Positions 3,792 through 35,755 of a stretch of 35,755 nucleotides of DNA are shown here, piece after piece. The notes under the pieces were generated by a model. The model saw nothing but the letters and a program-made list of their open reading frames with translations. It did not search any database and had not been told where the DNA came from. A program made the translations under genes and the position numbers. Numbering within the stretch: the stretch's first letter is position 1; every line of letters begins with the position of its first letter. The DNA comes from Pedosphaera sp. (GTDB taxonomy: Bacteria; Verrucomicrobiota; Verrucomicrobiia; Limisphaerales; F1-12-MAGs170), in the NCBI GenBank assembly GCA_009695275.1, contig SIBF01000023.1:1-35755 (forward strand), written 5' to 3'.

Positions 3792-5699
3792 TTAACGGCG
3801 CAATCGTTCCCACGCGCGAGCAACCACCCATCGTTCCTGCTCCAGCGAACGCCGCGCCGTCATTTCATCGGAGCCAGTGAGTTCTCGTAGGATTCTCACC
3901 GCGCGGTCGCGCAGCTTCATATTGGAAGGATTCAAATCCACCATCAGGTTGCCTATGACTTTGCCCAGCCGCGTCATCGCGAGCGTGGTGAAAATATTCA
4001 GCACAAGCTTCGTAGCTGTGCCGCATTTGAGGCGCGTGGAACCAGTCAGGATTTCGGGGCCCAAATCTGGATCGATGACGACATCGGGCTGTAGCGATGG
4101 CTTAAATTCCAAATACGGATTGAACGTGACAAGGATAATCATCGCCCCTCTGACACGGGCCGCTTGCAGAGCACCCCAGACAAATGGCGTCCGCCCACTC
4201 GCGGCAATTCCGACGACAACATCCTTCCGCGACACTGCTCGAAACTCCACAGCCGCGGCACCGGCCGGAGCATCATCCTCGGCACCTTCGACCGCCTGCC
4301 ACAGCGCGTTTCGTCCGCCTGCGATCACCCCCTGAACCAGGTCCGGTGGCGTGCGAAAAGTCGGCGGACACTCGCTGGCATCCAGAACCCCAAGCCGCCC
4401 ACTCGTTCCCGCGCCGAAATAAAAGAGACGGCCTCCGCTCTTGATAGCCGTCACGATGAGCGCGACGGCTTTCTCGATTTCGCGATGTTTGGTGAAGAGT
4501 TTTCCTGCCACGGTCCCTTCCTCACGAAGCATCAAGCGAACGGCTGCCGAGTATGAAAGCTGACTGAGGCGGCGTGAGTAAGAATTGCGAGACTCCGTCG
4601 GGGACAACTGGCTGGATCCTGGGATCAAACCCGCATCCCGAGCCACCGACACCTCATGCCGCGCGCGCGCAGCGACTGCACTTTCTGCGATGCTCACGAT
4701 GCCTGTCTTTCCAAGAATCTTCCGTCCCAGCATCACTGCTCCCCAGACGCTTTCGAGGCTCAGCGGAACACAAATGCATTCACCCCACTGTTCGGAAATC
4801 AAACGTGCAATTTGCCGCCGGAAACGGGGTTGCTGGATCAGCACGCCGCCGACAAACACGAATTCAACTTTGCCACCTCGTGGTGCGAGTTTCTTGGCGC
4901 AAGCCACCGCATCCTTCGCGAGACTATGCGCCGCGCCTTTCAGAATGTCCTGAGCGATTCGGTCTCGCTTTTGTGACGCTTGAAAAACCTCCAATGCCAG
5001 CGCGGCAATCTCTTCTTTGCCGGCCTGTTGCACCCACCCAATCAGGTCGTCAGGAGAGTTGAGCTGAAGCTTGCGAAGCAACCGTTGACCGAGAGAGGAC
5101 CACACTCCATCTCGATCCAGATAATACACCACAGCCTTGAGCGCCCTGAGACCGATCTCAAAACCGCTCCCCTTGTCCCCCAGTATGTGCCCCCAGCCAC
5201 CGATCTTGGCTGTTCTGCCTTCAGGTGCGCGGCCATAACAACAAGAACCCGTGCCGCTCAACACCAGCACTCGAGGAACTTCAATCTCGGCGCTTTGCCC
5301 AGCCGAAAGAGCGCTCTCCAGATCATTCGTGGCATGACAGGGCACTCCCGGCCATACCCGCGCGGCAGCTTCACGCATCCTGGCCCAATCCCGCTCATTC
5401 CGCGCGCCGGCAAGGCATATCGCCACCGCATCTGGAGCCGGACATTCTCGAGCAACTTCCGCCAACCGTCGCCAGAGTTTGGTATCTGTCAGAAGCCGGA
5501 GATTAGCAGGGCCGGTTTCAACTCGTCGAACGACTTTCCCAGACGCATCAACAGCCAGCGCCACAGTCCGCGTTCCGCCACCCTCGATACCAATGACAAT
5601 GTTCGATCGAGTTTGGATCGTCCGATCAGACGGGAGTTTTCCAGCTCTCGCCCTTTGGGAGGCCTTTAATTTGTCACTTCGTGTCGTTACCTTTGCCAT
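3792..5699 (-). CDS. murQ: Fusion protein: BadF/BadG-type sugar kinase (N-acetylglucosamine kinase-like) + N-acetylmuramic acid 6-phosphate etherase (MurQ)
   Basis: N-terminal IGIEGGGTRTVALAVD and GTGSCCYGR kinase-type motifs; C-terminal GAGTSGRLGVLDASECPPTF, EGAEDD, GIAASGRTPFVWGAL, TGSTRLKCGTATKLVLN, NLMVDLNPSNMKL MurQ motifs. Confidence 0.92.
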   Translation of the reverse strand: MAKVTTRSDKLKASQRARAGKLPSDRTIQTRSNIVIGIEGGGTRTVALAVDASGKVVRRVETGPANLRLLTDTKLWRRLAEVARECPAPDAVAICLAGARNERDWARMREAAARVWPGVPCHATNDLESALSAGQSAEIEVPRVLVLSGTGSCCYGRAPEGRTAKIGGWGHILGDKGSGFEIGLRALKAVVYYLDRDGVWSSLGQRLLRKLQLNSPDDLIGWVQQAGKEEIAALALEVFQASQKRDRIAQDILKGAAHSLAKDAVACAKKLAPRGGKVEFVFVGGVLIQQPRFRRQIARLISEQWGECICVPLSLESVWGAVMLGRKILGKTGIVSIAESAVAARARHEVSVARDAGLIPGSSQLSPTESRNSYSRRLSQLSYSAAVRLMLREEGTVAGKLFTKHREIEKAVALIVTAIKSGGRLFYFGAGTSGRLGVLDASECPPTFRTPPDLVQGVIAGGRNALWQAVEGAEDDAPAGAAAVEFRAVSRKDVVVGIAASGRTPFVWGALQAARVRGAMIILVTFNPYLEFKPSLQPDVVIDPDLGPEILTGSTRLKCGTATKLVLNIFTTLAMTRLGKVIGNLMVDLNPSNMKLRDRAVRILRELTGSDEMTARRSLEQERWVVARAWERLRR

Positions 5700-11050: not shown

Positions 11051-11273
11051 TGCGGAGGTCTTCCTGGGAACTCAGGGCAAACACCGGGCCGGTGCGTTTG
11101 ATGGCCTTTCGCTTGATCATTGAGAGCGCCGCGGCATCGCACTGGCTTGCGCGAGTCGATGCAGACCAAGGGACGAACTATCTGCGTGCGAATGCCGTGG
11201 AGTATTCGCCAGGGCCTGATCAGTAAAAAATCCCGCGTTGAATCTGCGGCCTTTCCGGAGATTATGGTCGCTG

Positions 11274-13799
11274 ATGATCAGTTCAGCCTTGCTCGCTTGC
11301 TTTGCCGTCGCTCTCTCGCCGCTTTCAATGGCGTCGGGTGCGACGGCGGAGTTTGTGAACTTGGAGAACAAGAGTGAGCACTGGTCCTTCCAGCCGGTGT
11401 CCAGTCCGGCGCCGCCAAAAACTGCGAACAAGCGCTGGGCACGCAACGAAGTGGACCGGTTCATCCTCGCGCGACTGGAGAAGGAAGGCTTGAAACCCGC
11501 GACGGAGGCGGATCGTGTGACCTGGCTGCGACGCGTGTCGTTTGATCTCATCGGGCTGCCGCCATCTCCGGAGCAGGTGGAGTCTTTCGTGAAGGATCGC
11601 CAGGGCAATGCTCACGAGAGTGTGGTGGACGAACTGCTGAAGTCGCCCCGTTACGGTGAGCGCTGGGCTCAGCATTGGCTGGATGTGGTGCGCTATGCGG
11701 ATACGCACGGCTTCGAGGTGAACACGGAGCGACCAAACGCCTGGCCGTATCGCGACTACATCATCCGCGCCTTTAACAACGACACGCCGTATGACCGCTT
11801 CATCCGGGAACAGATTGTTGGTGATGCGCTCGGCGAGGATGCGGCGACGGGTTTTCTTATCACGGCGTCCGTGCTGTTGCCTGGGCAGATCGGCGCGGAC
11901 GATGTTTCCAAGCGTCTTGCCCGGCAGGATTCGCTCGACGAAATCGTGGTGAACATCGGGCAGACCTTTCTCGGCCTGAGCGTGGGCTGCGCGCGGTGTC
12001 ACGACCACAAGTTTGATCCCATCAGCGCGCGGGATTATTACTCGATGCAGGCGTTCTTCGCGGGCGTGGAGTATGGCGACCGCGAATTGCACACGCCGGA
12101 AGCGGACGCGATGCGCACCGAGGAAAAGCGTCTTACGAAGCGGATGAGTGAAGTTGAATGGGATCTCTCTCGACTGTCGCCGCTGGCCAAATCCGGTGTG
12201 GAACGTCCGCCGGTGAATGCGCGCGTGAACACTGACCGCTTTGCGACGGTGAAGGCGAAACGTGTGCGTTTCACCATTCGCGAGACGAACAATCTGGAGC
12301 CGTGCCTTGATGAGCTGGAGGTTTTCGGCGCATCGGGTACGAACGTCGCGCTCGCCAGCGCAGGCACCACGTCAACGTCGTCGAGCGACACCGTCGTTGC
12401 GGACAATCATGAGTTGCGCTTCGTCAACGATGGTCATTACGGCAACTCACGGAGCTGGATGTCGAACGAGAAAGGCAAAGGTTGGGTGGTGCTGGAGTTC
12501 GCACAGGAGCAAATAATTGATCGCGTCGTGTGGGGGCGTGACCGCACTGCGCAGTTCATCGACCGGCTTGCGGCGAGTTACGTCATCGAAGTCGCCGATG
12601 CCGCAGGCGAATGGCACCTCGTCGCGGACTCGTCCGATCGTGTGAAGTTTGTGCCTGGAGAAAACAAAGCATCCTTGTTTTCCACCGCCGGACTCACCGC
12701 GGATGAAGCGAAGGAAGCGACGCGTTTGGTGGATGAAAAAAAGAAGCTGGAACGTAGCATCAAGGCAACAACGGAGGGGCGCCTGGCGTTCGCAGGAACG
12801 TTCCGATTACCGGATAAGATTCATCTGCTCAACCGCGGCGACCCGGAGCAGCCGAAGGACGAAGTTGTTCCCGCAGTGCTCAGCGTGCTTGGCTCGACGA
12901 AGCTTGCATGCGACACGGGTGAACAGGAGCGTCGCAAGGCGCTCGCTGGTTGGATTGCCAGCATCGAGAATCCTCTTACGGTGCGTGTGATGGTGAACCG
13001 CATCTGGCAGGGACATTTCGGCACCGGCCTCGTGGAGACCCCGAGTGACTTTGGCCGGAACGGTGCGAGACCGTCCCATCCCGAACTGCTCGACTGGCTG
13101 GCGTCCGAGTTCATTCGTTCCGGCTGGTCGGTGAAGCACATGCACCGCCTCATCGTGCTCTCGGCCACATATCGGCAGAGTTCTTCAACAGGAGGAAGCA
13201 GAGAGCACAGAGTTATGAAACAAGCTTCTCCGTTATCTCCTGTTCAAATCGACTCAGACGTCCGCCTGCTCTGGCGTTTTCCTTCACGCCGGCTCGAGTC
13301 CGAACCGATCCGCGACTCGATGCTCGCGGTCAGCGGGAAGCTGAACTTGAAGATGGGAGGGCGCGGCTTCGATCTGTTCAATAACCGCGGTGGGTTGAGC
13401 GGCTTCAATCCCGTCGAGTCCTTCAGCGGTGATGGCCTGCGGCGGATGATTTATGCGCACAAGGTCCGTCGCGAGCGCGAGGCTGTGTTTGGCGCATTCG
13501 ACTGCCCAGACGCCGGACAGAGCACCGCGCGCCGCCGCGAGTCCACCACGCCGATCCAGGCGCTGAACCTCTTCAACAGTCGTTTCACTATCGAGCAGGC
13601 CGATGCCTTCGCAAGCCGTGTGAAAGTTGATGCCGGCGAGGACATCGCCAAACAGATCCGTCGCGCTTACCAACTCGCACTCAGTCGTAACCCGAGTGTT
13701 GCCGAGTTGACGGACGTTCAGCCGATCGTGGCCGCGCATGGATTACCGACGCTTTGCCGCGCTCTTTTCAACAGTAACGAGTTTCTTTTCGTCCCATGA
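11274..13799 (+). CDS. PSD1-type protein: DUF1549 + F5/8C-like insert + DUF1553, lacking an N-terminal PSCyt1 domain
   Basis: NEVDRFILARLEKEGLKPATEADRVTWLRRVSFDLIGLPPSPEQV, GCARCHDHKFDPISARDYY, NPLTVRVMVNRIWQGHFGTGLVETPSDFG, TTPIQALNLFNS; signal-peptide-like start MISSALLACFAVALSPLSMASGATA at 11274 (ORF opens at 11238 with TTG). Confidence 0.93.
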   Translation: MISSALLACFAVALSPLSMASGATAEFVNLENKSEHWSFQPVSSPAPPKTANKRWARNEVDRFILARLEKEGLKPATEADRVTWLRRVSFDLIGLPPSPEQVESFVKDRQGNAHESVVDELLKSPRYGERWAQHWLDVVRYADTHGFEVNTERPNAWPYRDYIIRAFNNDTPYDRFIREQIVGDALGEDAATGFLITASVLLPGQIGADDVSKRLARQDSLDEIVVNIGQTFLGLSVGCARCHDHKFDPISARDYYSMQAFFAGVEYGDRELHTPEADAMRTEEKRLTKRMSEVEWDLSRLSPLAKSGVERPPVNARVNTDRFATVKAKRVRFTIRETNNLEPCLDELEVFGASGTNVALASAGTTSTSSSDTVVADNHELRFVNDGHYGNSRSWMSNEKGKGWVVLEFAQEQIIDRVVWGRDRTAQFIDRLAASYVIEVADAAGEWHLVADSSDRVKFVPGENKASLFSTAGLTADEAKEATRLVDEKKKLERSIKATTEGRLAFAGTFRLPDKIHLLNRGDPEQPKDEVVPAVLSVLGSTKLACDTGEQERRKALAGWIASIENPLTVRVMVNRIWQGHFGTGLVETPSDFGRNGARPSHPELLDWLASEFIRSGWSVKHMHRLIVLSATYRQSSSTGGSREHRVMKQASPLSPVQIDSDVRLLWRFPSRRLESEPIRDSMLAVSGKLNLKMGGRGFDLFNNRGGLSGFNPVESFSGDGLRRMIYAHKVRREREAVFGAFDCPDAGQSTARRRESTTPIQALNLFNSRFTIEQADAFASRVKVDAGEDIAKQIRRAYQLALSRNPSVAELTDVQPIVAAHGLPTLCRALFNSNEFLFVP
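13187..13244. repeat. Imperfect palindromic repeat inserted in frame within the DUF1553 coding region
   Basis: Arms AACAGGAGGAAGCAGAGA (13187-) and reverse complement of ...TCTCCGTTATCTCCTGTT (-13244); AACAGGAG/CTCCTGTT is perfect, about 14/18 over the longer arm. Confidence 0.7.
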
Positions 13800-15124
13800 A
13801 CTACACGCACCTTATTAAAGCCATCAACAGCGCGACGTCCGAATTGCAAGGCCGGGCGGTGATGGCGGTAAATCAAGCGCTGGTCATGCGCAACTGGCTG
13901 GTCGGCGCTTACCTGGTTGAGTTTGAGCAGAACGGGAAGGACCGAGCAAAATATGGAGAACGGTTGCTGGAGCGGGTGGCAGAGGATGTGGCGGAGAAGA
14001 ACATCAAAGGTCTTGATGAAAGAACACTTCGCGACTGTCGCACGCTCTATGGGATATATCCTCAAATTCGGGGGGCACTGACCCCCGAATTCAGCAGGAA
14101 GCTCAAGTTGCCTCCAATTCCTTCAATACTGTCGATGGAATTATCCCCGTCCGAAGCGCAGAACTCCGCTTCTGAGATTCACGGGACACTGACCCGCGAA
14201 TCGTCCGTCCGCTTGGCGCTACCGCCCATTCGACAGTTACTGTCTGTCGAATCAGTGATGACAAAAGCCCTCGTCTCAATTCGGGGGTCACTGCCCCCCG
14301 AATTGCCCACGCCCCTTTCGATCGATAATTTGCTGCGGCTTTCTTGGACACACTTTCAAGAATTTATCCGCCTCGACGACCCGTGGAAGCGTGCCTTCTA
14401 CGAGAACGAATGTCTCAAGGCGAATTGGTCGGTACGCCAGCTCCAGCGGCAGATTGGCTCGCTGCTCTACGAACGCACCGGACTGTCGAAGAATAAGGCT
14501 GCCGTCATCCAGCGTGCGCGATCGCAGGAGCCGCGGGAGACTATTGCCGACCTCATCCGTGACCCGTATGTGCTGGAATTCACCGGCCTTGCTGAGCGGC
14601 CGGAGTATCGTGAGTCCGATCTGGAACGTGCGCTGCTCGACCACTTGCAAGGATTCCTCCTCGAACTTGGCGAGGGGTTTTGCTTCGAGGCGCGGCAACG
14701 GCGCATCACTGTTGGAGTCAAGCACAACTACATTGACCTCATCTTCTACCGCCGCCGCCTGCGCTGCCATGTACTGATTGATTTGAAGATTCGCGCATTC
14801 CAGCACGGCGACGCCGGTCAAATGAATTTTTATCTCAACTGGTGGAAATCGAACGCGGTCGAAGACGGCGACCATCCGCCTGTCGGCATCATCCTGTGTA
14901 GCGAGCGCGACCGGGTGGATGTCGAATTCGCAACGGCCGGAGTAAGTAACAAACTCTTCGTCTCACGCTACCTTGTCGCTCTGCCCTCGGCGGAGCAACT
15001 GCGATCGTTTCTCGAAAAAGACCGCGCACGGATTGAGAGCCTGATGCCGCCGGCTGCGAGCCGGAAGAAATCTGTAAAACGGCGAAGGGCGGCGAAATCA
15101 AAAAAGCGGAGGTTCAACAAATGA
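13796..15124 (+). CDS. DUF1016 (YhcG-like) protein with C-terminal PD-(D/E)XK nuclease domain
   Basis: [102 protein letters not shown] (D...DxK); FYLNWW. Confidence 0.95.
14065..14304. repeat. In-frame array of palindromes (27-nt units at 51-nt period) with a shared ACTG loop centre and differing, self-complementary stems
   Basis: Units 14065-14091, 14116-14142, 14176-14202, 14227-14253, 14278-14304, plus a degenerate hairpin at 14150-14175. Confidence 0.9.
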
Positions 15125-16590
15125 ACCACCACGACGGAGTCTTTTCACTCCACGGTCGCCACTTGTTGGATCGTCGCGGCTTCCTGTCCAGCACTGCGAC
15201 GGCGTTAGGCTCCATCGCGTTGACGAACCTGCTCGGGCTGGATGGCTTGCTCGCGGCGCAAGGGCCGGTGATTGATCCCGCGCGCCCGTATGCGCCGCGA
15301 CAACCTCATTTTCCCGCGAAAGCGAAGAACGTCATCGTTATCTTCTGCGCCGGAGCGGTCAGCCAGTTGGAGACGTGGGATTACAAGCCGGAGCTGATCC
15401 AGTGGGACAATAAACCGTTGCCGGGAGGACCGGCGGTGACGTTTCAAGGCCCGGCCGGCAATCTCGCGCGGCCGCAGTATGAGTTTCGTCCGCGCGGACA
15501 GACGGGGAAGATGGTCTCCGACTTGATCCCGCACCTCGCAGAACTCACCGACGACATCGCCTTCATCCACTCGCTGACCAGCAAGAGCAACACGCACGGG
15601 CCTGCCGAGAATTTCCTCTCCACCGGCTTCGTGCTCGATGGTTTCCCGAGCCTCGGCTCGTGGGTGAGTTACGCGCTCGGGAGCGAGAACCAGGATCTGC
15701 CGGCGTTCGTTTCCATCCTTGATCCGCGCGGTGTCCCGCAGAACGGCTCGAACAACTGGGGTCCCGGCTTTCTGCCTGCGGCCTTCCAAGGCACCACCTT
15801 CAGCGCCAGGGATCCGGTACGTCATCTGGCCGCGCCCGGTATTTCGCCCGAAGCGGACCGCGCTGCGCGTTCGCTCTTGCAGCGCATGAACTCGCGCCAT
15901 CTGGAGCAGCATCCCGGGGACAGCAAGCTGGCGGCACGCATTGCGAGTTACGAATTGGCAGCACGCATGCAGCTCAGCGTTCCCGAGATCAGCGACCTCT
16001 CCACCGAGCCGGCGCACATTCTGAAAAGCTACGGCGCGGACGACACAGCGAACCCAATCAAAGCCGGCTTCGCCAGGAACTGCATCCTCGCACGCCGGCT
16101 GATTGAGAAAGGTGTGCGTTTCGTTCAGCTATTCAATGGCGCTTACGCCAGCGGCGGTGAGTTGAACTGGGATGGCCACAACAAGCTGAAGGAGCAATAC
16201 GACAAACACGCCACCATCCTCGACCAGCCCGCAGCAGCGCTCATCCGCGACTTGCGCCAGCGTGGCTTGCTGGAAGACACGCTCGTCGTCTGGTGCACGG
16301 AGTTCGGGCGCATGCCATTCTTCCAAAAGGGCGCGCAAGGTCGCGACCACAATCCCGACGGCTTCACCTGCTGGTTGACCGGAGCCGGGGTGAAGCGCGG
16401 TGTGAGCCACGGTGTCACCGACGAACTCGGCCAGCGCGCCGTGGAGAACATTCATCCGCTCTACGATCTAAACGCGACCATACTGCACCTCCTTGGCCTC
16501 GACCACGAGAAGCTTACATTTGAGCACAACGGCGTGCAGCGCCGGCTGACCAATGTGGAGGGCCACGTGATCAGGGAAGTGTTGGTGTAG
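15121..16590 (+). CDS. DUF1501 family protein with Tat-like N-terminus
   Basis: [25 protein letters not shown] leader; [39 protein letters not shown]...[21 protein letters not shown]. Confidence 0.94.
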
Positions 16591-16729
16591 TCTTCGCTGC
16601 GGCAATGGCCGAGCCATTGACGGTTCCGCGCTGATTCCCCAAGAATTTCTCGGCGCAAAGTCCAGCCAGCACGTCAGCGATCTGGCCTCCTTCACGGGAG
16701 TTGCTTGAACTTCGCCGGGCTCAGGCAGG

Positions 16730-16899
16730 TACTGAGGAGACCGTGGAATAGCCGACAAATCTCGGAGGCGGCGCGGGCGCATCTGCTGCGTGGCTCGCTT
16801 GGTCAGAGGCCGCTGCGGGCATCCTCCCGCGCTCACGCCTTGCATCTGTGCCCACGGCACTCTCCGGAATTCGTCGTCTATCCCGCGGTCTCCTCAGTA
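16730..16899. mobile_element. MITE-like inverted-repeat element of about 170 bp between convergent genes
   Basis: TACTGAGGAGACCGTGGAATAG (16730-16751) versus reverse complement of 16878-16899, TACTGAGGAGACCGCGGGATAG: 20/22 identity; weaker complementarity continues inward. Confidence 0.55.
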
Positions 16900-16900
16900 G

Positions 16901-18376
16901 CTACACCACGATGTCGTTCACGACATGTCCGTGGACATCTGTGAGGCGGTAGCGGCGTCCCTGGAATTCGTAAGTGAGACGTTCGTGGTCGAAGCCCAGG
17001 CAATGGAGAATCGTCGCCTGCATGTCGTGGACGTGGACGGGGTTCTCCACGGTGTGAAAGCCCAGTTCGTCCGTGGCACCGTAGCTGAGTCCGCGCTTCA
17101 CGCCGCCGCCGGCCATCCACAGGGTGAACGCCTGCGGATGATGATCGCGACCCATCGAACGACCGAGGCTCGGGTTGGTCTCCACCATGGGCGTGCGTCC
17201 GAATTCACCGCCCCAGATGACGAGCGTGGAATCGAGCAGGCCGAGGCGCTTGAGATCCTTCACCAGCGCCGCGCTCGCCTGATCAGTGGTTTTGCAATTG
17301 CCGGTGTGATTGCCCACCACGTCGCTGTGAGCGTCCCATCCCTCGTGGTAAATGTTGATAAACCGCACTCCGCGCTCGACCATCCGGCGGGCCAGCAGAC
17401 AGGCGCGGGCAAATGAGGGTTTGTCCGGGTCGCAGCCGTAGAGTTCGAGTGTCTCCTTCTTCTCGCTCTTCAAGTCCATCAGCTCCGGTGCGCTGGTCTG
17501 GAGGCGAAAGGCCATTTCATAGGCGTTGATGCGCGTGGCAATCTCAGGATCACCCACTGCGCCGAGTTGCTGCTCGTTCATGGAGCGAACCAGGTCGAGC
17601 GTGTCGCGCTGGAGTCTGTCGTCCACGCCTTTCGGGCTGGCGACGTTCAGGATGGGATCGCCCTGGTTGCGCAGACGCACGCCGGTGAATGTTGTCGGGA
17701 TGAAGCCGCTCGACCAATTGGCCGCGCCGCCACTGATGCCTGAGCCGGTGCTCATCACCACATAGGCCGGCAGGTTCTTCGACTCCGAGCCAAGTCCGTA
17801 GGTCGCCCACGAGCCAATGCTGGGCCGTCCGGGTTGAGAGAAACCGGTGTTGAAGAAAATTTGCGCCGGCGCGTGGTTGAACTGATCCGTCTTCACCGAG
17901 CGAATCAGGCAAATCTCATCCGCGATGGAACCGATGTGCGGAAGGATCTCGCTCATTTCTGCACCGCTCTGGCCATACTTCTTGAATTTGAAACGGGGCG
18001 CCATGACTGCGGCATCCGATCGGATGAACGCGTAGCGCTGGCCTCCAATGACAGACGGTGGCAACGGTTTCCCTTCGAGCTTGAGCAACTCCGGTTTGTA
18101 ATCGAACAGATCGAGCTGCGAGGGCGCGCCTGCCATGAAAAGGTGAATGACCGCCCTGGCTTTCCCGGGAAAATGCGGCTGCTTCGGCACCATTAAATCG
18201 ACCGGCGCGGCCGCCCTCGAGACAAACGCATCCGTCAGCAACGACGCGAGGCCGACCTTGCCGAGCCCGATGCCGCACTCGCGCAGAAACCAGCGCCGGC
18301 TCAAGGGCAGCCCGCGCTCCGAGAAGTGATGTGACTGGCAGTTCATGGAGTCATTGCTTCGTGATTGTTTCGTCAA
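16901..18376 (-). CDS. DUF1501 family protein
   Basis: LSRRWFLRECGIGLGKVGLASLL leader; KPELLKLEGKPLPPS; VIWGGEFGRTPMVE...GRDHHPQAFTLWMAGGGVKRGLSYGATDELG. Confidence 0.94.
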   Translation of the reverse strand: MTKQSRSNDSMNCQSHHFSERGLPLSRRWFLRECGIGLGKVGLASLLTDAFVSRAAAPVDLMVPKQPHFPGKARAVIHLFMAGAPSQLDLFDYKPELLKLEGKPLPPSVIGGQRYAFIRSDAAVMAPRFKFKKYGQSGAEMSEILPHIGSIADEICLIRSVKTDQFNHAPAQIFFNTGFSQPGRPSIGSWATYGLGSESKNLPAYVVMSTGSGISGGAANWSSGFIPTTFTGVRLRNQGDPILNVASPKGVDDRLQRDTLDLVRSMNEQQLGAVGDPEIATRINAYEMAFRLQTSAPELMDLKSEKKETLELYGCDPDKPSFARACLLARRMVERGVRFINIYHEGWDAHSDVVGNHTGNCKTTDQASAALVKDLKRLGLLDSTLVIWGGEFGRTPMVETNPSLGRSMGRDHHPQAFTLWMAGGGVKRGLSYGATDELGFHTVENPVHVHDMQATILHCLGFDHERLTYEFQGRRYRLTDVHGHVVNDIVV

Positions 18377-21300
18377 GATTCAAGATCGCGCGCGCCACGG
18401 TGGTCCACGCGGCGCGTTCCACCATGTCGCCCTTGCCGTCATCGGCAAGATCCGCAGCCTTCAACTCGCCGCTCTTCACTCGTTCGCGCTGGGCGTTGAG
18501 AAAAGCGACCAGCCTGGCCTTTTCGGCGGCGGCCGGCTCGCGCGTGAGTACGCGGCGGAAAACGAACTCAGCCTTCCGCTCATCGTCGCCGGATTGCTCA
18601 GCCGTGAGCGCGCCCAGTTTCTGGGCGGCTTCGACGAACGCGATGTCGTTGAGCAAGGTCAGCGACTGGAGCGGTGTGTTCGAGATTTCGCGTTTGGCCA
18701 GGCAAGTTTCGCCTGACGGCGCGTCAAACGTGTTGAACATCGCAAAGGGTGCGCTGCGTTTCTGGAACGTGTAAAGCGACCGGCGGTAGCGGTCTTCGCC
18801 CGGGCTTACCTCCCACTTGGCAGAGCCGTAGGCCACCTCAGTCACGCCATCTGGCTGCGGCGGTTTCACAGGTGGCCCGAACATTTTCGCCGACAGCGTG
18901 CTGCTCGAAGCCAGCGCGGAGTCACGAATGATTTCCGCGTCCAGCCGCACGCGGGGGCTGCGGGCCAGAAGGCGGTTCTGAGGATCGCGTGAGAGCAACT
19001 CCGGAGTGAACCGCGACTGCTGTCGATAAGTGGAGCTGGTGACAATGAGGCGATGCAGCTTCTTGAGCGACCAGCCTTGCTTGATGAATTCCACCGCCAG
19101 CCAGTCGAGCAGCTCAGGATGGCTTGGCAGCTCGCCTTGGAATCCAAAATCGTTCTGCGTTCCTACGATCCCGGTGCCGAAGAAGGCGGCCCATTGCCGG
19201 TTCACCACGACGCGCGCGGTCAGCGGATTCTCCGGGGAAACGAGCCATTTCGCGAGCGCGAGCCTGTCCCTTTTTGAATCCTCGGGCAGGCGTGGCAGGA
19301 ACTGGGGGACATCGGCCTCCACGCGGTCTGTCGGCTGGAGGAACTCGCCGCGATTATGGATGAATGTCGAGCGTGGCGCAGCGGTGGGACGCTCGCGCAT
19401 CACCAGTGTCGTGGTGTAAGCCGGCGGTTTGCGCAGGTCGCGAATCTCCTTCGACTGCTTCGCCAACTCCGGTGCGGTGAGCAGGAAGCTCTCGCGCAAC
19501 TCCGCGCGCTGTTCAGTCGTGAGCCCGGCATCTGGCACGAACAACAAGCGCTCGACCGATTCCGAGAGTTTTCCCGCCTCGGCACCGCGTGCAGCGGTTG
19601 TGACCGAGATGCGGAATCGCCCCAGCGAGCAGGCGTAGTGACGCCCAAACAGCATCTTCACGTCGAGACGGCTGGCTTCGACGGGTTCGTCTGGAACGAA
19701 CACGGCGTGGTGCGTCTCACCGGGCCGGTCCGCGCAGCTCCATCCGGTTTGCGGATCGCCGTCGGTTGCGGCCCTGGCGCTGGCACCGCTGCCGAAATTA
19801 TTTTTCGCGTAACTCTCCGTGGCTTTCACGAATTTCACGCGCCGGCCATCCGCAGCCACTTGAAATTCACCCAGGAAAAAATCGCCCTTGGGCCCTTCGT
19901 AATATGCCAGGCCGGGACCATGCGCCGGCAGGCTGTCATCGGGCAGCGCTTCCAGGCGGATGGCGGTGACGCGGCCCGGCAGATTAGTGAAGGTGAGATC
20001 GTAAACGTCGCTCTTGCTGATGTCGCCACTGGCCAGCACGGAATTGTCCGGCTGCACGGTGAGCAACGGCAGGTTCGATTTCGGCCCGGTGGGTCGTAGG
20101 ACAGTCCATGTGACAGCGCGTTTCCGCTCACGCTCCAACCATTGCGTGAACGCGGCCTCCAAGGCCTCCTGTCTGCGCACAAGTTCCGGCCGCGTGTCAC
20201 TCTCCGGTGCCCCGACGCTGATCGCGAGACGCCCGATGGTGTGATTTCCTCCGTGTTGCTGCTGCAAACGCACGGTGATTCTTGTGCCGGAATCCAGCAC
20301 CATGGTTTTTTCGAACTGGAACGTGGCCGAGTGATTCGCGTTCAAGGTTTTTCCAGCCTCATGGATTGCCCAGCCTGTCTCCAATTTACCGTCAAATGCG
20401 TTGCCGACTGGAAACTCGTTTTGTTCCGCGGTGGCCTTAGCGCTGCGAATCTTTACCGGCTCCGTCGCGGCTGAACCGTTGAGCGGCGTCCGACTTACGG
20501 TGATTTCCGAGAGGACAAAATTTCCGTGCGGCGTGCGACCCGGACCTTTGTTCGGCAGAGAATCGTGAGTCAACGCCTCGAGGCGGAGCTGCGTGACGTT
20601 GGTCAGCTTCGTGATAAAACTAACCGTCACATCGCTGCGGTCCAATCCCGGAGCGGTGAAGAGCACCGAGCCATCCTCCAACAACCTGGCGTCATCCCCC
20701 TGCTCCAAGCTCTCGATCTTTGGCGTTACTTTTTCCCAGTGGAAGGGCTCCAGCTCGACCGGCCAACTCGTGGAAAGCTCTGCGAGAAGTTTCGTCGCGC
20801 GCCCCTCGCGGCCGCGTTGCTGTTCCCCGGCGTCTTCGGCCGGAAGATCAAGGTCCGGCTCCTCGGCGTTATTTAGGAATGCCATCAGTTGGTAGTAATC
20901 CTTGTGCAAAATGGGATCGTATTTATGCGTGTGGCACTGCGCGCAGCCGACGGTCAGGCCGAGCCACGCCGTGCCGGTGGTGTTGACGCGGTCCACCACG
21001 GCGTGAAAACGAAACTCCAACGGATCGATACCCCCCTCCTCGTTGAGCATCGTATTCCGATGAAACCCCGTGGCGACGAGCTGATCGCGCGTGGGGTTCG
21101 GCAACAAATCGCCCGCGATCTGCTCGACGGTGAACTGGTCGAACGGCATGTCGGCATTCAAGGCGCGTATGACCCAGTCGCGATACGGCCAGATGCTGCG
21201 GTTGCGATCCTTCTCGTAGCCGTTGCTGTCAGCATAGCGGGCGAGGTCGAGCCACTTGCGCGCCCAGCGCTCGCCGTAACGGGGCGACGCCAGCAGCTTT

Positions 21301-21947
21301 GCCACGAGCCGTTCGCAGGCGTCAGGCCGCGCATCTTGCGCGAACGCGTCCGCTTCCTCCGGCGTGGCAGGCAGGCCGATCAGGTCGAGATGCAGCCGGC
21401 GGGCCAGGGTGAGCTTGCTGGCTTCGGGGGAGGGCTTTAATCCTTCCTTCTGGAGACGCGCAGCGATGAAGGCGTCGATGGAATTGCGCACTTCGAATCC
21501 CGGATTCTGCACGTCGGGCGGCGACACGGCCTTTGGTGCCACGAATGACCAGTGCGGCCGATAATCCGCACCATCTGCGATCCAGCGCTTGAGAATGTCC
21601 TTCTGTTGAGGGTTGAGCGGATGCTTCACCTTCGCGGGCGGCATCAGGTCATCTTCGTCCGTCGTGAAGATGCGGGCGATAACTTCGCTCTTCTCCGGTT
21701 GACCCGGCACGATGGCTGGCCCGCCTGATTTGCCCGACTTGAGCGCGGCATCCCGCATGTCCAGGCGCACGCCGCCCTTGCGCGTGTCATCGTCGGGGCC
21801 GTGGCACTTGAAACAATGGGAGGAAAGGATGGGGCGCACTTCGCGCAAGAAGTCCGGCGACTCCGCCGCCATGCTGGTGCCGACCCAAAGCGCGCCGGCC
21901 AGGACGACTGCGGTTCTCAGTGACATCGCATTCATGGCTTGGTGCAT
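18351..21947 (-). CDS. PSD1-type protein: PSCyt1 (heme CxxCH) + DUF1549 + duplicated discoidin-like inserts + DUF1553
   Basis: VRPILSSHCFKCHGPDDDTRKGGVRLD; LARRLHLDLIGLPATPEE; GCAQCHTHKYDPI; NPLTARVVVNRQWAAFFGTGIVGTQNDFG; NTPLQSLTLLND; overlaps the downstream DUF1501 start by 26 nt. Start may be a downstream ATG (MNAMSLRTAVVL...). Confidence 0.95.
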   Translation of the reverse strand: MHQAMNAMSLRTAVVLAGALWVGTSMAAESPDFLREVRPILSSHCFKCHGPDDDTRKGGVRLDMRDAALKSGKSGGPAIVPGQPEKSEVIARIFTTDEDDLMPPAKVKHPLNPQQKDILKRWIADGADYRPHWSFVAPKAVSPPDVQNPGFEVRNSIDAFIAARLQKEGLKPSPEASKLTLARRLHLDLIGLPATPEEADAFAQDARPDACERLVAKLLASPRYGERWARKWLDLARYADSNGYEKDRNRSIWPYRDWVIRALNADMPFDQFTVEQIAGDLLPNPTRDQLVATGFHRNTMLNEEGGIDPLEFRFHAVVDRVNTTGTAWLGLTVGCAQCHTHKYDPILHKDYYQLMAFLNNAEEPDLDLPAEDAGEQQRGREGRATKLLAELSTSWPVELEPFHWEKVTPKIESLEQGDDARLLEDGSVLFTAPGLDRSDVTVSFITKLTNVTQLRLEALTHDSLPNKGPGRTPHGNFVLSEITVSRTPLNGSAATEPVKIRSAKATAEQNEFPVGNAFDGKLETGWAIHEAGKTLNANHSATFQFEKTMVLDSGTRITVRLQQQHGGNHTIGRLAISVGAPESDTRPELVRRQEALEAAFTQWLERERKRAVTWTVLRPTGPKSNLPLLTVQPDNSVLASGDISKSDVYDLTFTNLPGRVTAIRLEALPDDSLPAHGPGLAYYEGPKGDFFLGEFQVAADGRRVKFVKATESYAKNNFGSGASARAATDGDPQTGWSCADRPGETHHAVFVPDEPVEASRLDVKMLFGRHYACSLGRFRISVTTAARGAEAGKLSESVERLLFVPDAGLTTEQRAELRESFLLTAPELAKQSKEIRDLRKPPAYTTTLVMRERPTAAPRSTFIHNRGEFLQPTDRVEADVPQFLPRLPEDSKRDRLALAKWLVSPENPLTARVVVNRQWAAFFGTGIVGTQNDFGFQGELPSHPELLDWLAVEFIKQGWSLKKLHRLIVTSSTYRQQSRFTPELLSRDPQNRLLARSPRVRLDAEIIRDSALASSSTLSAKMFGPPVKPPQPDGVTEVAYGSAKWEVSPGEDRYRRSLYTFQKRSAPFAMFNTFDAPSGETCLAKREISNTPLQSLTLLNDIAFVEAAQKLGALTAEQSGDDERKAEFVFRRVLTREPAAAEKARLVAFLNAQRERVKSGELKAADLADDGKGDMVERAAWTTVARAILNLDETITKQ

Positions 21948-32996: not shown

Positions 32997-33095
32997 TTAG
33001 GATAAGTCACGAGGCTGAAGGTTCAACACAACGGCGTCACCATGAAAACGCCTTTCTTTGACTTCGCGAAGCTCACCAACCAAGAATTCCTTCAC
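32997..33095 (-). CDS. Putative 32-aa micro-ORF coupled to the PafA-like gene: (M)KEFLVGELREVKERRFHGDAVVLNLQPRDLS
   Basis: GTG start overlaps the TGA stop of the PafA-TPR gene (GTGA). Confidence 0.35.
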   Translation of the reverse strand: MKEFLVGELREVKERRFHGDAVVLNLQPRDLS

Positions 33096-35503
33096 AGCCA
33101 CCAATAGAAATCCGTTCCGCCGTCGGGATCGACTGCGGCAGTTACCCAATCGTCCCAGTGGTCTAGAACTTTGGCAAGGGCTGGGCACTGGGAAAGGGCT
33201 GGGCGCAAACCACGGAGTTCATGCAAGCGGGATTTGATTGGCGCTGTAGCCGAGAGGTCGCGGAGGAGCCGGGCTTGGAGAACCAGCGTGCGAGCCTCCC
33301 CCATTCGATTGTGCAGTCGGATCTGGATGGCCCTGACCTGGTCAAGCAACTGCAGAGCCACTGCCCGATCAGAGTCAAGCTTGGCGCGGTAGGTTAGCGT
33401 CAAGTCTGCGAGATCGCCTTCGAAGTTTTGGGCCAGTTGCAATCTTTCCGCCGCTTCGAGCGTACGGTGGGCATCTTCCGCGCGGCCAACGGCGCGATAG
33501 ACATCCCCGAGATCGGCCAGTGCACGGGCAATCACTCCTGGGTTGGCTTGGAGGCGACGTTCGGGCCGGCAGGCATCTTCAAGCGCCGCCATCGCCTCGC
33601 TAGGATGACCATTGCGTAGAAGGAATAGGCCGCAATGGTCGAGGAAGGCTACGGCCGTGCCAGAGTTACCGTCGGAGGCCGCCAGGAATTCGCGTCCCGT
33701 CTCGATCCACCTTTCGATGGCCGCGGCGGGAACCAGACCCCGGTGGCGATAAGCGCATACGTAGTCGTTGACAAGCGAGAAGGTCAAGGAATGCAACCGC
33801 ATCAATTCGTCCAGCGCGGAGATGCTGTCGCAGAAACCTCGCCGGCTTTGCACCCACGCCCGCAGACGGAGGAATTCATAGTTCAAATCCGAGTCAAATG
33901 TATCCTGAAAGATCCCCACTTCGCTAAGTCGTTCGGCGGCGGATTCGTGATTGCCCCGGTCGTGGAATGCGAGCGCCTGACCCACCATCATGCCCAGGTG
34001 ATCGTGGATGGAGACCTTACAATCGCGGAATCCTTTCGGTACCTCTTGCCAGCGTTCCTCGGAGGTGAATGGATGTGAGAGATCGAGCATGACGCGTCTC
34101 TCGCAGTCCACCACGCCCCGCCAGCTACATGTGAAACGTTTGCGTTCAGCCGCAAAACGCTGGACGCACTGGCCGCGGAGCTTCGCGCGCCCGATGGCAG
34201 GCGGTTGGGCAACGGCGTGCTCAATGTTATCCACGCCAGGGAAGCGATGCGTGAGGACACCGGCATGATCCAGCTCGGAGAAGATGCCGCCATCCAACTG
34301 ACCAAAGCGTGTGTCGATCTCGCAGAGTTCCTGGTGGACTTGTGCTATTGACCAGGCATCCGTCCGCCGGAGTTTCAAACTTTGCATTTCTTCCAGGAGA
34401 ACATCGGAGTCGAGGATCGTGGCGGAATTGGCATTGAGTCGTGCATGCTGCCATTGATCCTCCTTGACGCCGCGCCGTCCCGCGCGTTCAAGGAACAGAG
34501 AGAGTTTGATCGCCCAATCGAGTTGGGTCGCAACAGAGGCTGGCGCGCCATTCTCCAGGCGATCCAGCATGGTACGCCATTCAATGCAGACGCGTTCAGC
34601 CCACGGCGGCATGAATTGGGCGTGAACGTGGGCCTCGGCCACTTCGAGGTAATGACGTTGGATTTGCACCGCGCTCAACTGGCGTCCGCCGAGCGTACGC
34701 GTGGTGGCCTGGCAGGCCGGATCGGCGGCGAAGCGTTGCATGGCGCTGAGCGGATTCATCAGCTGCACCGCACGGCCTGGCTGCAGGCCTGCCTCGATCA
34801 TGGCCGCAATCACCGCAGTGGCACCCATGTTAAGCCAGAGCGCGGTCTCGGAACAGACGCTTTCACCACAAATGATATGGAGCCGGTGAAACCCGTCGGC
34901 GGCAAGAGTCTCGTCCTTGGTGTGAAAAATGCCCCGGTCGCTGGTGCTGTTGTTGGAAAACTCTTGTTTCAGGAACGCCACACGCGGTGAGAGCGTGAAC
35001 GCAAGCCGGCTGCCGGCGAGTTCGATGCCACCCGCACCGGAGTAAACAATCCGGCTGACCAGATGCGGGATTATCTGTTCCGGAAGTTTCCCCGGGTCCG
35101 CACGGTGCATGAACGATGTGTGGCAGCCCCACGTCGAGCCCGAGCCGCTGTGGTCCACGTTCGTCTTGAAGAGGAGCACTTCCGCGGCTGAAGGTGAGTG
35201 ACGTTTCAGTTCAGCAGCCACTGTGCTCAACACCCTCTCTCCAGCATGCATGTAGCGCACCAAGTCCCACGGGTTGGCGCATTCGGGCGTGGTCATCTCG
35301 GGATGGCCCGAGTCGATGTAAAAGCGGGCGCCATTGGGCAGGAAGATTCCGCCGCCATCCGTCGCCGGCAGGTGGGCCAGGCAATCGCGCGCCGTATTCA
35401 TGAAGCGAGTTGCCCAGTCGCGATTGGGCCCCGCGCGCACAGCCTCACGGTCGCGAACCGCAAAGCCGTACTCCGTTTCCATGCCAAACAAGCTTTCACT
35501 CAT
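33092..35503 (-). CDS. PafA/Dop superfamily (Pup ligase/deamidase-like, glutamine-synthetase fold) protein fused to a TPR-like C-terminal region
   Basis: MSESLFGMETEYGFAV; IFLPNGARFYIDSGHPEMTTPEC; AGERVL; LLFKTNVDHSGSGSTWGCHTSFM; C-terminal about 300 aa with helical repeats (ALADLGDVYRAVGRAEDAHRTLEAAERL). SD-like GGAGG precedes ATG at 35503 (the ORF track extends to a TTG at 35590). Confidence 0.88.
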   Translation of the reverse strand: MSESLFGMETEYGFAVRDREAVRAGPNRDWATRFMNTARDCLAHLPATDGGGIFLPNGARFYIDSGHPEMTTPECANPWDLVRYMHAGERVLSTVAAELKRHSPSAAEVLLFKTNVDHSGSGSTWGCHTSFMHRADPGKLPEQIIPHLVSRIVYSGAGGIELAGSRLAFTLSPRVAFLKQEFSNNSTSDRGIFHTKDETLAADGFHRLHIICGESVCSETALWLNMGATAVIAAMIEAGLQPGRAVQLMNPLSAMQRFAADPACQATTRTLGGRQLSAVQIQRHYLEVAEAHVHAQFMPPWAERVCIEWRTMLDRLENGAPASVATQLDWAIKLSLFLERAGRRGVKEDQWQHARLNANSATILDSDVLLEEMQSLKLRRTDAWSIAQVHQELCEIDTRFGQLDGGIFSELDHAGVLTHRFPGVDNIEHAVAQPPAIGRAKLRGQCVQRFAAERKRFTCSWRGVVDCERRVMLDLSHPFTSEERWQEVPKGFRDCKVSIHDHLGMMVGQALAFHDRGNHESAAERLSEVGIFQDTFDSDLNYEFLRLRAWVQSRRGFCDSISALDELMRLHSLTFSLVNDYVCAYRHRGLVPAAAIERWIETGREFLAASDGNSGTAVAFLDHCGLFLLRNGHPSEAMAALEDACRPERRLQANPGVIARALADLGDVYRAVGRAEDAHRTLEAAERLQLAQNFEGDLADLTLTYRAKLDSDRAVALQLLDQVRAIQIRLHNRMGEARTLVLQARLLRDLSATAPIKSRLHELRGLRPALSQCPALAKVLDHWDDWVTAAVDPDGGTDFYWWL

Positions 35504-35555: not shown

Positions 35556-35738
35556 TCAAAGCCCCCAGAAAATATCGCCGTAGCTGTCAATGGCCCTGTC
35601 CAGCGTCCCAGCAGTTCTCATTTTGACGGCTGAGGTGGAATGAGGCGGTCTGAGCGGTCTGAAGGTTTTTTCATTTTGTCCTGGACTCACACCGTTTTTT
35701 GGTTTATCCCGGTTTCGGATGCTAACCGAACCGCTCAT
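35556..35738 (-). CDS. Putative 60-aa small protein upstream of the PafA-like gene (MSGSVSIRNRDKPKNGVSPGQNEKTFRPLRPPHSTSAVKMRTAGTLDRAIDSYGDIFWGL)
   Basis: ATG overlaps a TGA in the upstream frame (ATGA; frame ...SDNAPG* open to the window edge); polar, Pro/Lys/Arg-rich; 52 nt before the PafA-like ATG. Confidence 0.45.
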   Translation of the reverse strand: MSGSVSIRNRDKPKNGVSPGQNEKTFRPLRPPHSTSAVKMRTAGTLDRAIDSYGDIFWGL

Positions 35739-35755
35739 CCAGGGGCGTTATCTGA

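Follow-up and report, generated by a model that had tools for sequence, protein, structure and literature searches.

A Pup-ligase-family gene near the contig end

We analysed a 35,755-nucleotide stretch of Pedosphaera sp. DNA (contig SIBF01000023.1 of assembly GCA_009695275.1, positions 1 to 35,755; hereafter the window), near the right-hand end of which lies a gene of the Pup-ligase family. A preliminary description, made from the letters alone, had placed a PafA/Dop-type ligase fused to a TPR-like region at 33092-35503 without giving a strand. The open reading frame (ORF) is real and lies on the minus strand: read from the ATG at 35503 to the stop at 33094-33092 it encodes 803 amino acids, and the plus-strand frame over the same interval is full of stops. 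A GGAGG stands about 10 nt 5' of this ATG and orthologues begin in register with it (MAERLFG, MSERLLG). An extended start at TTG 35590 was ruled out because the orthologues start at the equivalent of 35503. The gene, of PafA type, probably encodes an enzyme that attaches a small Pup-like tag to proteins.

The catalytic region (residues 1-490; 34034..35503, minus strand) consists of a glutamine-synthetase-like PafA/Dop domain and its C-terminal domain. Pfam PF03136 (Pup_ligase) matches the protein over residues 5-359 and in a second stretch (2.9e-87, 294 bits), which against a cut-off of 25 bits is not a chance match, and Foldseek comparison of the AlphaFold model with the PDB returned PafA and Dop structures (4b0r, 4bjr, 4b0t) at 2.7e-17 to 3.5e-11. 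The NCBIfam equivalog models, however, score 241.3 bits for Dop (TIGR03688, cut-off 492.3) and 227.4 bits for PafA (TIGR03686, cut-off 551.3). Since both values are under half of their cut-offs, the enzyme is a divergent member of the family, as had been proposed. The quoted motifs are also present, namely GMETEYG (residues 7-13), NGARFYIDSGHPEMTTPE (residues 57-74; 35282..35335, minus strand) and AGERVL (residues 87-92). We aligned the window protein with Corynebacterium glutamicum PafA and with seven orthologues, taking the Mg/ATP/phosphate motifs of the superfamily from PMC2588565. The GhExE motif that holds Mg/ATP ligands reads GMETE (residues 7-11; 35471..35485, minus strand) opposite GIETE of C. 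glutamicum, with G7, E9 and E11 invariant across eight orthologues; D64, H67, E69 and E74 of the second motif are conserved, and H128, R190 and R207 are kept as well. WGCHTSFM stands where [Y/F]GxHEN[Y/F] is expected, so that in WGCHTSF (residues 125-131; 35111..35131, minus strand) the strand-4 HxN has kept its His and exchanged its Asn for Ser. The loss of Mg/ATP ligands that the preliminary description had named as fatal to its proposal was therefore not seen, with the Asn-to-Ser exchange as a caveat. This exchange, together with the partner genes not found in the metagenome-assembled genome (MAG) that holds the window, might indicate a decayed or inactive paralogue. We consider this very unlikely, as the 803-codon frame is free of stops, all other motif residues are kept, and the nearest relative (L038), 65% identical in the ligase core and 56% over the full length including the TPR region, carries the same HTS.

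Dop possesses a Dop-loop of 40-65 residues before strand 2 that is absent in PafA (PMC8599861, PMC7947786). In the window protein 53 residues separate GhExE from the strand-2 Asp, and in its clade 46-53. Canonical PafA has 43-57 and canonical Dop 75-92 (apart from one pattern misread), and the Dop-like proteins encoded beside its relatives have 65-107. With this spacing and no Dop-loop, the window protein is, as judged from its sequence, of PafA type and not of Dop type, although Dop (structures 4b0r, 9cku) gives the higher of the two equivalog scores; in the relatives the Dop role falls to a separate neighbouring gene (P0005 family). In a tree of 66 sequences the window protein groups with eight relatives in a clade of nine with 100/100 support. 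This clade stands outside the ordinary PafA and Dop clades and, in the best tree, on the PafA side (100/99). The canonical PafA and Dop of Verrucomicrobia lie apart from it, PafA as a distinct 100/100 clade, and the seven Dop-like proteins of the relatives' operons form a 100/100 clade of their own on the Dop side. A contig binned as Woesearchaeota (L107) has four PF03136-type genes, one Dop-like and three tandem PafA-like; the latter three form a deep separate clade, which could be a case of mis-binning or a further variant.

Residues 495-803 (33095..34021, minus strand) form a TPR-like helical superhelix. TPR Pfam models match the C-terminal ~305 residues weakly (best 0.0027, below the cut-off), but AlphaFold predicts a run of helical hairpins there (H499 to H787, pLDDT mostly 60-90), and Foldseek matched the window protein to TPR proteins in the PDB, e.g. 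APC/C subunits, Rap and LGN. The extension itself is thus borne out. The TPR fusion is, however, not what defines the group: the tail occurs in four members (the window protein, L038, L039 and G053) and is absent from two orthologues of the same clade (G040, 551 aa, and L041), and is therefore an accessory of the clade. It probably selects targets or docks a partner.

Orthologous loci in relatives

Upstream of the ligase ATG 252 bp remain before the contig breaks off inside a repeat. The 146 bp at 35609..35754 (no strand), between the ligase and whatever precedes it, recur unchanged as the first bases of another contig of this MAG, C144, which continues from there into a pilin-type gene; the assembly therefore breaks in this repeat. 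No Pup-like C-terminus was found in any of three frames of the 252 bp, and it is correct that the window shows no proteasome, ATPase or second PafA/Dop gene. As the rest of the locus is off the contig, the operon has to be read in relatives. In the nearest of these, the spacer from the Pup-like gene to the ligase (L038:9860-10000) is likewise expanded by short repeats, comparable to the repeat at the window's contig end.

A search of one genome per species across 85,462 species, plus related genomes, gave at least eight orthologous loci. Four of them (L038, L039/G060, L041 and G040, from Verrucomicrobia and Deltaproteobacteria/Myxococcota) hold a full co-directional run of genes for a RING protein, a ThiF-type E1, an E2, a conserved protein termed X, a ubiquitin-like protein (Ubl), a JAB protein, an AAA ATPase, a Dop-like protein, a Pup-like protein and, as the last gene, the ligase; L038 has both this whole operon and the TPR tail. 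The genes abut or overlap, the frames of JAB and AAA among them. Three further runs, from two Acidobacteria MAGs and one other MAG, are partial because their contigs start at the Ubl gene (L044), inside the JAB gene (L040) or inside the AAA gene (L043). Among the loci listed, a Pup-like gene directly precedes the ligase in all eight orthologues with upstream sequence, and a Dop-like gene is also present in seven of the eight. These results uphold the suggestion of a Pup/UBact-like conjugation variant. They run counter to the other option that had been raised, a stand-alone amidoligase modifying a peptide, which would be an enzyme whose product is a gamma-glutamyl peptide or metabolite: the window by itself, with no Pup gene in sight, would be compatible with such an enzyme, but given the neighbours of the orthologues we regard it as highly improbable. 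What the preliminary description lacked is that the operon of the relatives, a rare one, adds a full E1/E2/RING/JAB/Ubl cascade and an ATPase of the ARC/Mpa kind.

The identity of the components varies in clarity. The E1 matches ThiF (PF00899, 1.7e-28), the Dop-like protein matches PF03136 at 279 bits, and the JAB protein matches Prok-JAB (PF14464, 9.5e-6), with the metal site (E, HxH, SxxD) readable in every complete copy. The RING assignment rests on Prok-RING_1 (PF14446, 7.2e-6, below its cut-off); an FHA-like stretch in the same protein was read from the sequence by eye and is not a database match. The E2 (P0010 family) has no direct Pfam match, a profile search of the PDB gave nothing significant, and its AlphaFold model (pLDDT 41) was too weak to be used. 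It has, however, an (H/A)PN...C motif whose Cys is invariant in four proteins, and a search with its profile recovers UQ_con E2s of other bacterial Ubl operons. The Ubl has AG at its C-terminus, either as the last residues or followed by a short tail. It shares 35% identity with a Ubl-like ORF in another genome (G478), the equivalent of which in G443 matches Pfam YukD at 2.5e-14; against the PDB it matched MoaD/SAMP1 alone, at a merely suggestive E of 0.05-0.15. The ATPase combines PF00004 with a proteasomal-ATPase OB domain and has pup_AAA as its best NCBIfam match (3.3e-70). The part before the OB domain aligns with ARC, and the protein shares 29% identity with the window genome's ARC. We do not count its lack of a C-terminal GQYL as a sign against proteasome docking, since that canonical ARC has no GQYL either. 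PADLOC gave weak hits to the E1 and AAA genes alone and did not recognise a defence system.

The Pup-like proteins are 61-101 aa long, contain 0-2 lysines, and end in RQEGGQ, RQDGGQ, RQQGGQ, RQQGGE, RQPDGQ, RQNSGE, RQTSAE or KQPPAQ, which fit the pattern [RK]Q..[GA][QE]. Protein X (L034:2580-3614, L039:3974-4876, L038:3383-4381) shows 27% identity (3e-16) for the X of G053. Apart from Pup and the ligase, X is the sole gene that the reduced G053 locus retains, and it may therefore serve the ligase as an adaptor.

Several known systems resemble parts of this arrangement. Like actinobacterial PafA (4b0t, 4bjr; TIGR03686), the window protein has the PafA/Dop fold, GhExE, NGxRxYxD..HPE and no Dop-loop, and in its relatives the Pup-like gene adjoins the ligase. 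It differs in its score (227 bits against a cut-off of 551), TPR tail, HTS and separate 100/100 clade, and the relatives' operon differs from PafA loci in adding E1, E2, RING, JAB and Ubl and in having no 20S genes. Pup/UBact systems, known outside actinobacteria from Verrucomicrobia, Nitrospirae, Deltaproteobacteria and Planctomycetes (PMC2588565), share a small lysine-poor modifier, mostly ending in G[EQ], and PafA and Dop paralogues. Their published neighbourhoods, however, contain proteasome subunits or a membrane protein, and the 2008 survey of them makes no mention of E1, E2, RING or JAB, or of Pup in combination with these (PMC2588565). The other half is shared with bacterial Ubl operons (YukD-type Ubl, ThiF E1, UBC E2, JAB, Prok-RING), and the combination is not mentioned in the accessible part of the 2006 survey of these operons (PMC1779556). 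In the Ubl operons of G443, G478 and contig C199 of the window genome, unlike in the relatives' operon, no Pup, Dop, PafA or ARC-like gene adjoins. The ATPase has the AAA domain and interdomain OB domain of Mpa/ARC (TIGR03689), but reaches 237 bits against a cut-off of 504.75, has no terminal GQYL, and is encoded in G060 without a 20S match.

Interpretation of the operon

Our preferred reading, to which we assign a probability of about 70%, is that the window protein is an ATP-dependent PafA-type ligase, the terminal gene product of a dual-modifier operon that combines a YukD-type Ubl cascade (E1, E2, RING, JAB) with a pupylation cycle. By homology with the known enzymes, the Dop-like protein would deamidate the C-terminal Gln of the Pup-like protein to Glu and also remove the tag, and the ligase would use ATP to phosphorylate this Glu and join it to a lysine of a target. 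E1, E2 and RING would attach the Ubl and the JAB isopeptidase would remove it, while the ARC/Mpa-like ATPase would grip Pup-tagged proteins and unfold or extract them; in some members the TPR region would read substrates or dock a partner. No 20S proteasome match was found in G060 (94% complete), G053 or the window genome (G000, 66% complete), and neither G060 nor the genomes of L038, L040, L041, L043 and L044 hold any PafA/Dop pair other than that of the operon. With no 20S in at least one such genome (G060), the output may be remodelling or extraction and not degradation.

Several observations weigh against this reading. The strand-4 HxN is HTS in the window protein and L038, where other members of the clade have HEN or HES. 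The Pup-like protein ends in PPAQ in L038 and in TSAE in L041, which is not a strict GG[EQ]. No Pup-like, Dop-like, operon-type JAB or operon-type AAA gene was found in the 66%-complete window genome, where a PF03136 search returned the ligase gene only and an AAA search a canonical ARC and an FtsH-like match only; the presence of the operon in this genome is accordingly what its relatives suggest. The G053 locus consists of adjoining X, Pup-like and ligase genes only, so that the Ubl half is not always linked. Finally, the approximately unbiased (AU) test does not reject a tree that joins the operon's two PF03136 clades (p-AU 0.18), or one in which the window clade and the canonical PafA of Verrucomicrobia are joined (p 0.50). 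The deep branching is therefore unsure, whereas there is no such doubt that the window clade is a separate one.

The second of these trees would suit a rival reading in which a verrucomicrobial ligase of the ordinary Pup-proteasome kind has acquired a TPR tail and serves the canonical ARC/20S route. The window genome does encode a canonical-type ARC/Mpa ATPase (L127:7819-9591; pup_AAA 423 bits) on contig C228, which stops shortly after this gene, and canonical PafA/Dop with a 20S gene occur in the congener G001 and in G040. We nevertheless find this explanation improbable. Canonical verrucomicrobial PafA forms its separate clade, G040 has a canonical pair with 20S alongside the window-type ligase but in a different operon, and G060 has a window-type ligase with neither a 20S match nor a second pair. 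The Pup, Dop, PafA and 20S partners of the C228 ARC were not found in the window MAG.

Beyond the dual-modifier assignment, the two tags may act in one coupled system. Pup would be put on Ubl-marked proteins or on the Ubl itself, JAB and Dop would strip the tags, an ARC-type ATPase would serve as a segregase in the absence of a proteasome, and the TPR would read the first tag or a RING/E2 partner. It is the conserved gene order that speaks for coupling, and we offer it tentatively, as a possibility with somewhat less than even odds. The halves could instead be independent, with the Ubl cascade and pupylation merely co-inherited or co-regulated, which would leave the ligase assignment untouched. 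The Ubl half does occur without Pup genes in G443, G478 and partly on C199, and G053 retains X, Pup and the ligase alone; yet the joint order is kept across Verrucomicrobia and Deltaproteobacteria/Myxococcota at 42-57% ligase identity, the Acidobacteria loci keep Ubl or JAB beside the Pup genes, and the JAB and AAA frames overlap. We therefore think independence rather unlikely.

Our full-text literature search returned no Pup ligase with a TPR and no Pup plus E1/E2/JAB operon, although a 2011 article on prokaryotic RING proteins (10.1039/C1MB05061C) lay outside it and an earlier sighting is possible. We thus found no published description of the two-tag operon, and there is a substantial chance that it represents a distinct coupled system. 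Ubl conjugation, which runs through E1, E2 and RING, and pupylation, which uses the glutamine-synthetase fold, are considered to have arisen independently of each other as ways of tagging proteins (PMC2588565). If the coupled system is real, it would offer a natural example of one pathway using two unrelated tags, with an unfoldase, across distant bacterial phyla, and of pupylation without a proteasome. The TPR region would be a candidate substrate-reading module on a Pup ligase, making target choice by such ligases directly testable.

Other features of the window and its genome

Apart from the ligase and the C228 ARC, the window genome holds a plain ubiquitin-like locus on contig C199 (L126:8696-11905) with a JAB protein, a transmembrane protein, a RING protein with a TM2 domain and a UQ_con E2 with a GYF-like tail; it is cut by the contig end ahead of any E1 or Ubl. 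Given this RING/E2/JAB locus and the C228 ARC, the genome may carry more than one system. Elsewhere in the window, read by eye, the minus-strand ORF at 3792-5699 looks like a fusion of an N-acetylglucosamine kinase of the BadF type with an etherase of the MurQ type. By the same reading, DUF1549/DUF1553 and DUF1501 gene pairs of planctomycete type occupy 11238-21947, with a DUF1016-like nuclease ORF between them at 13796-15124.
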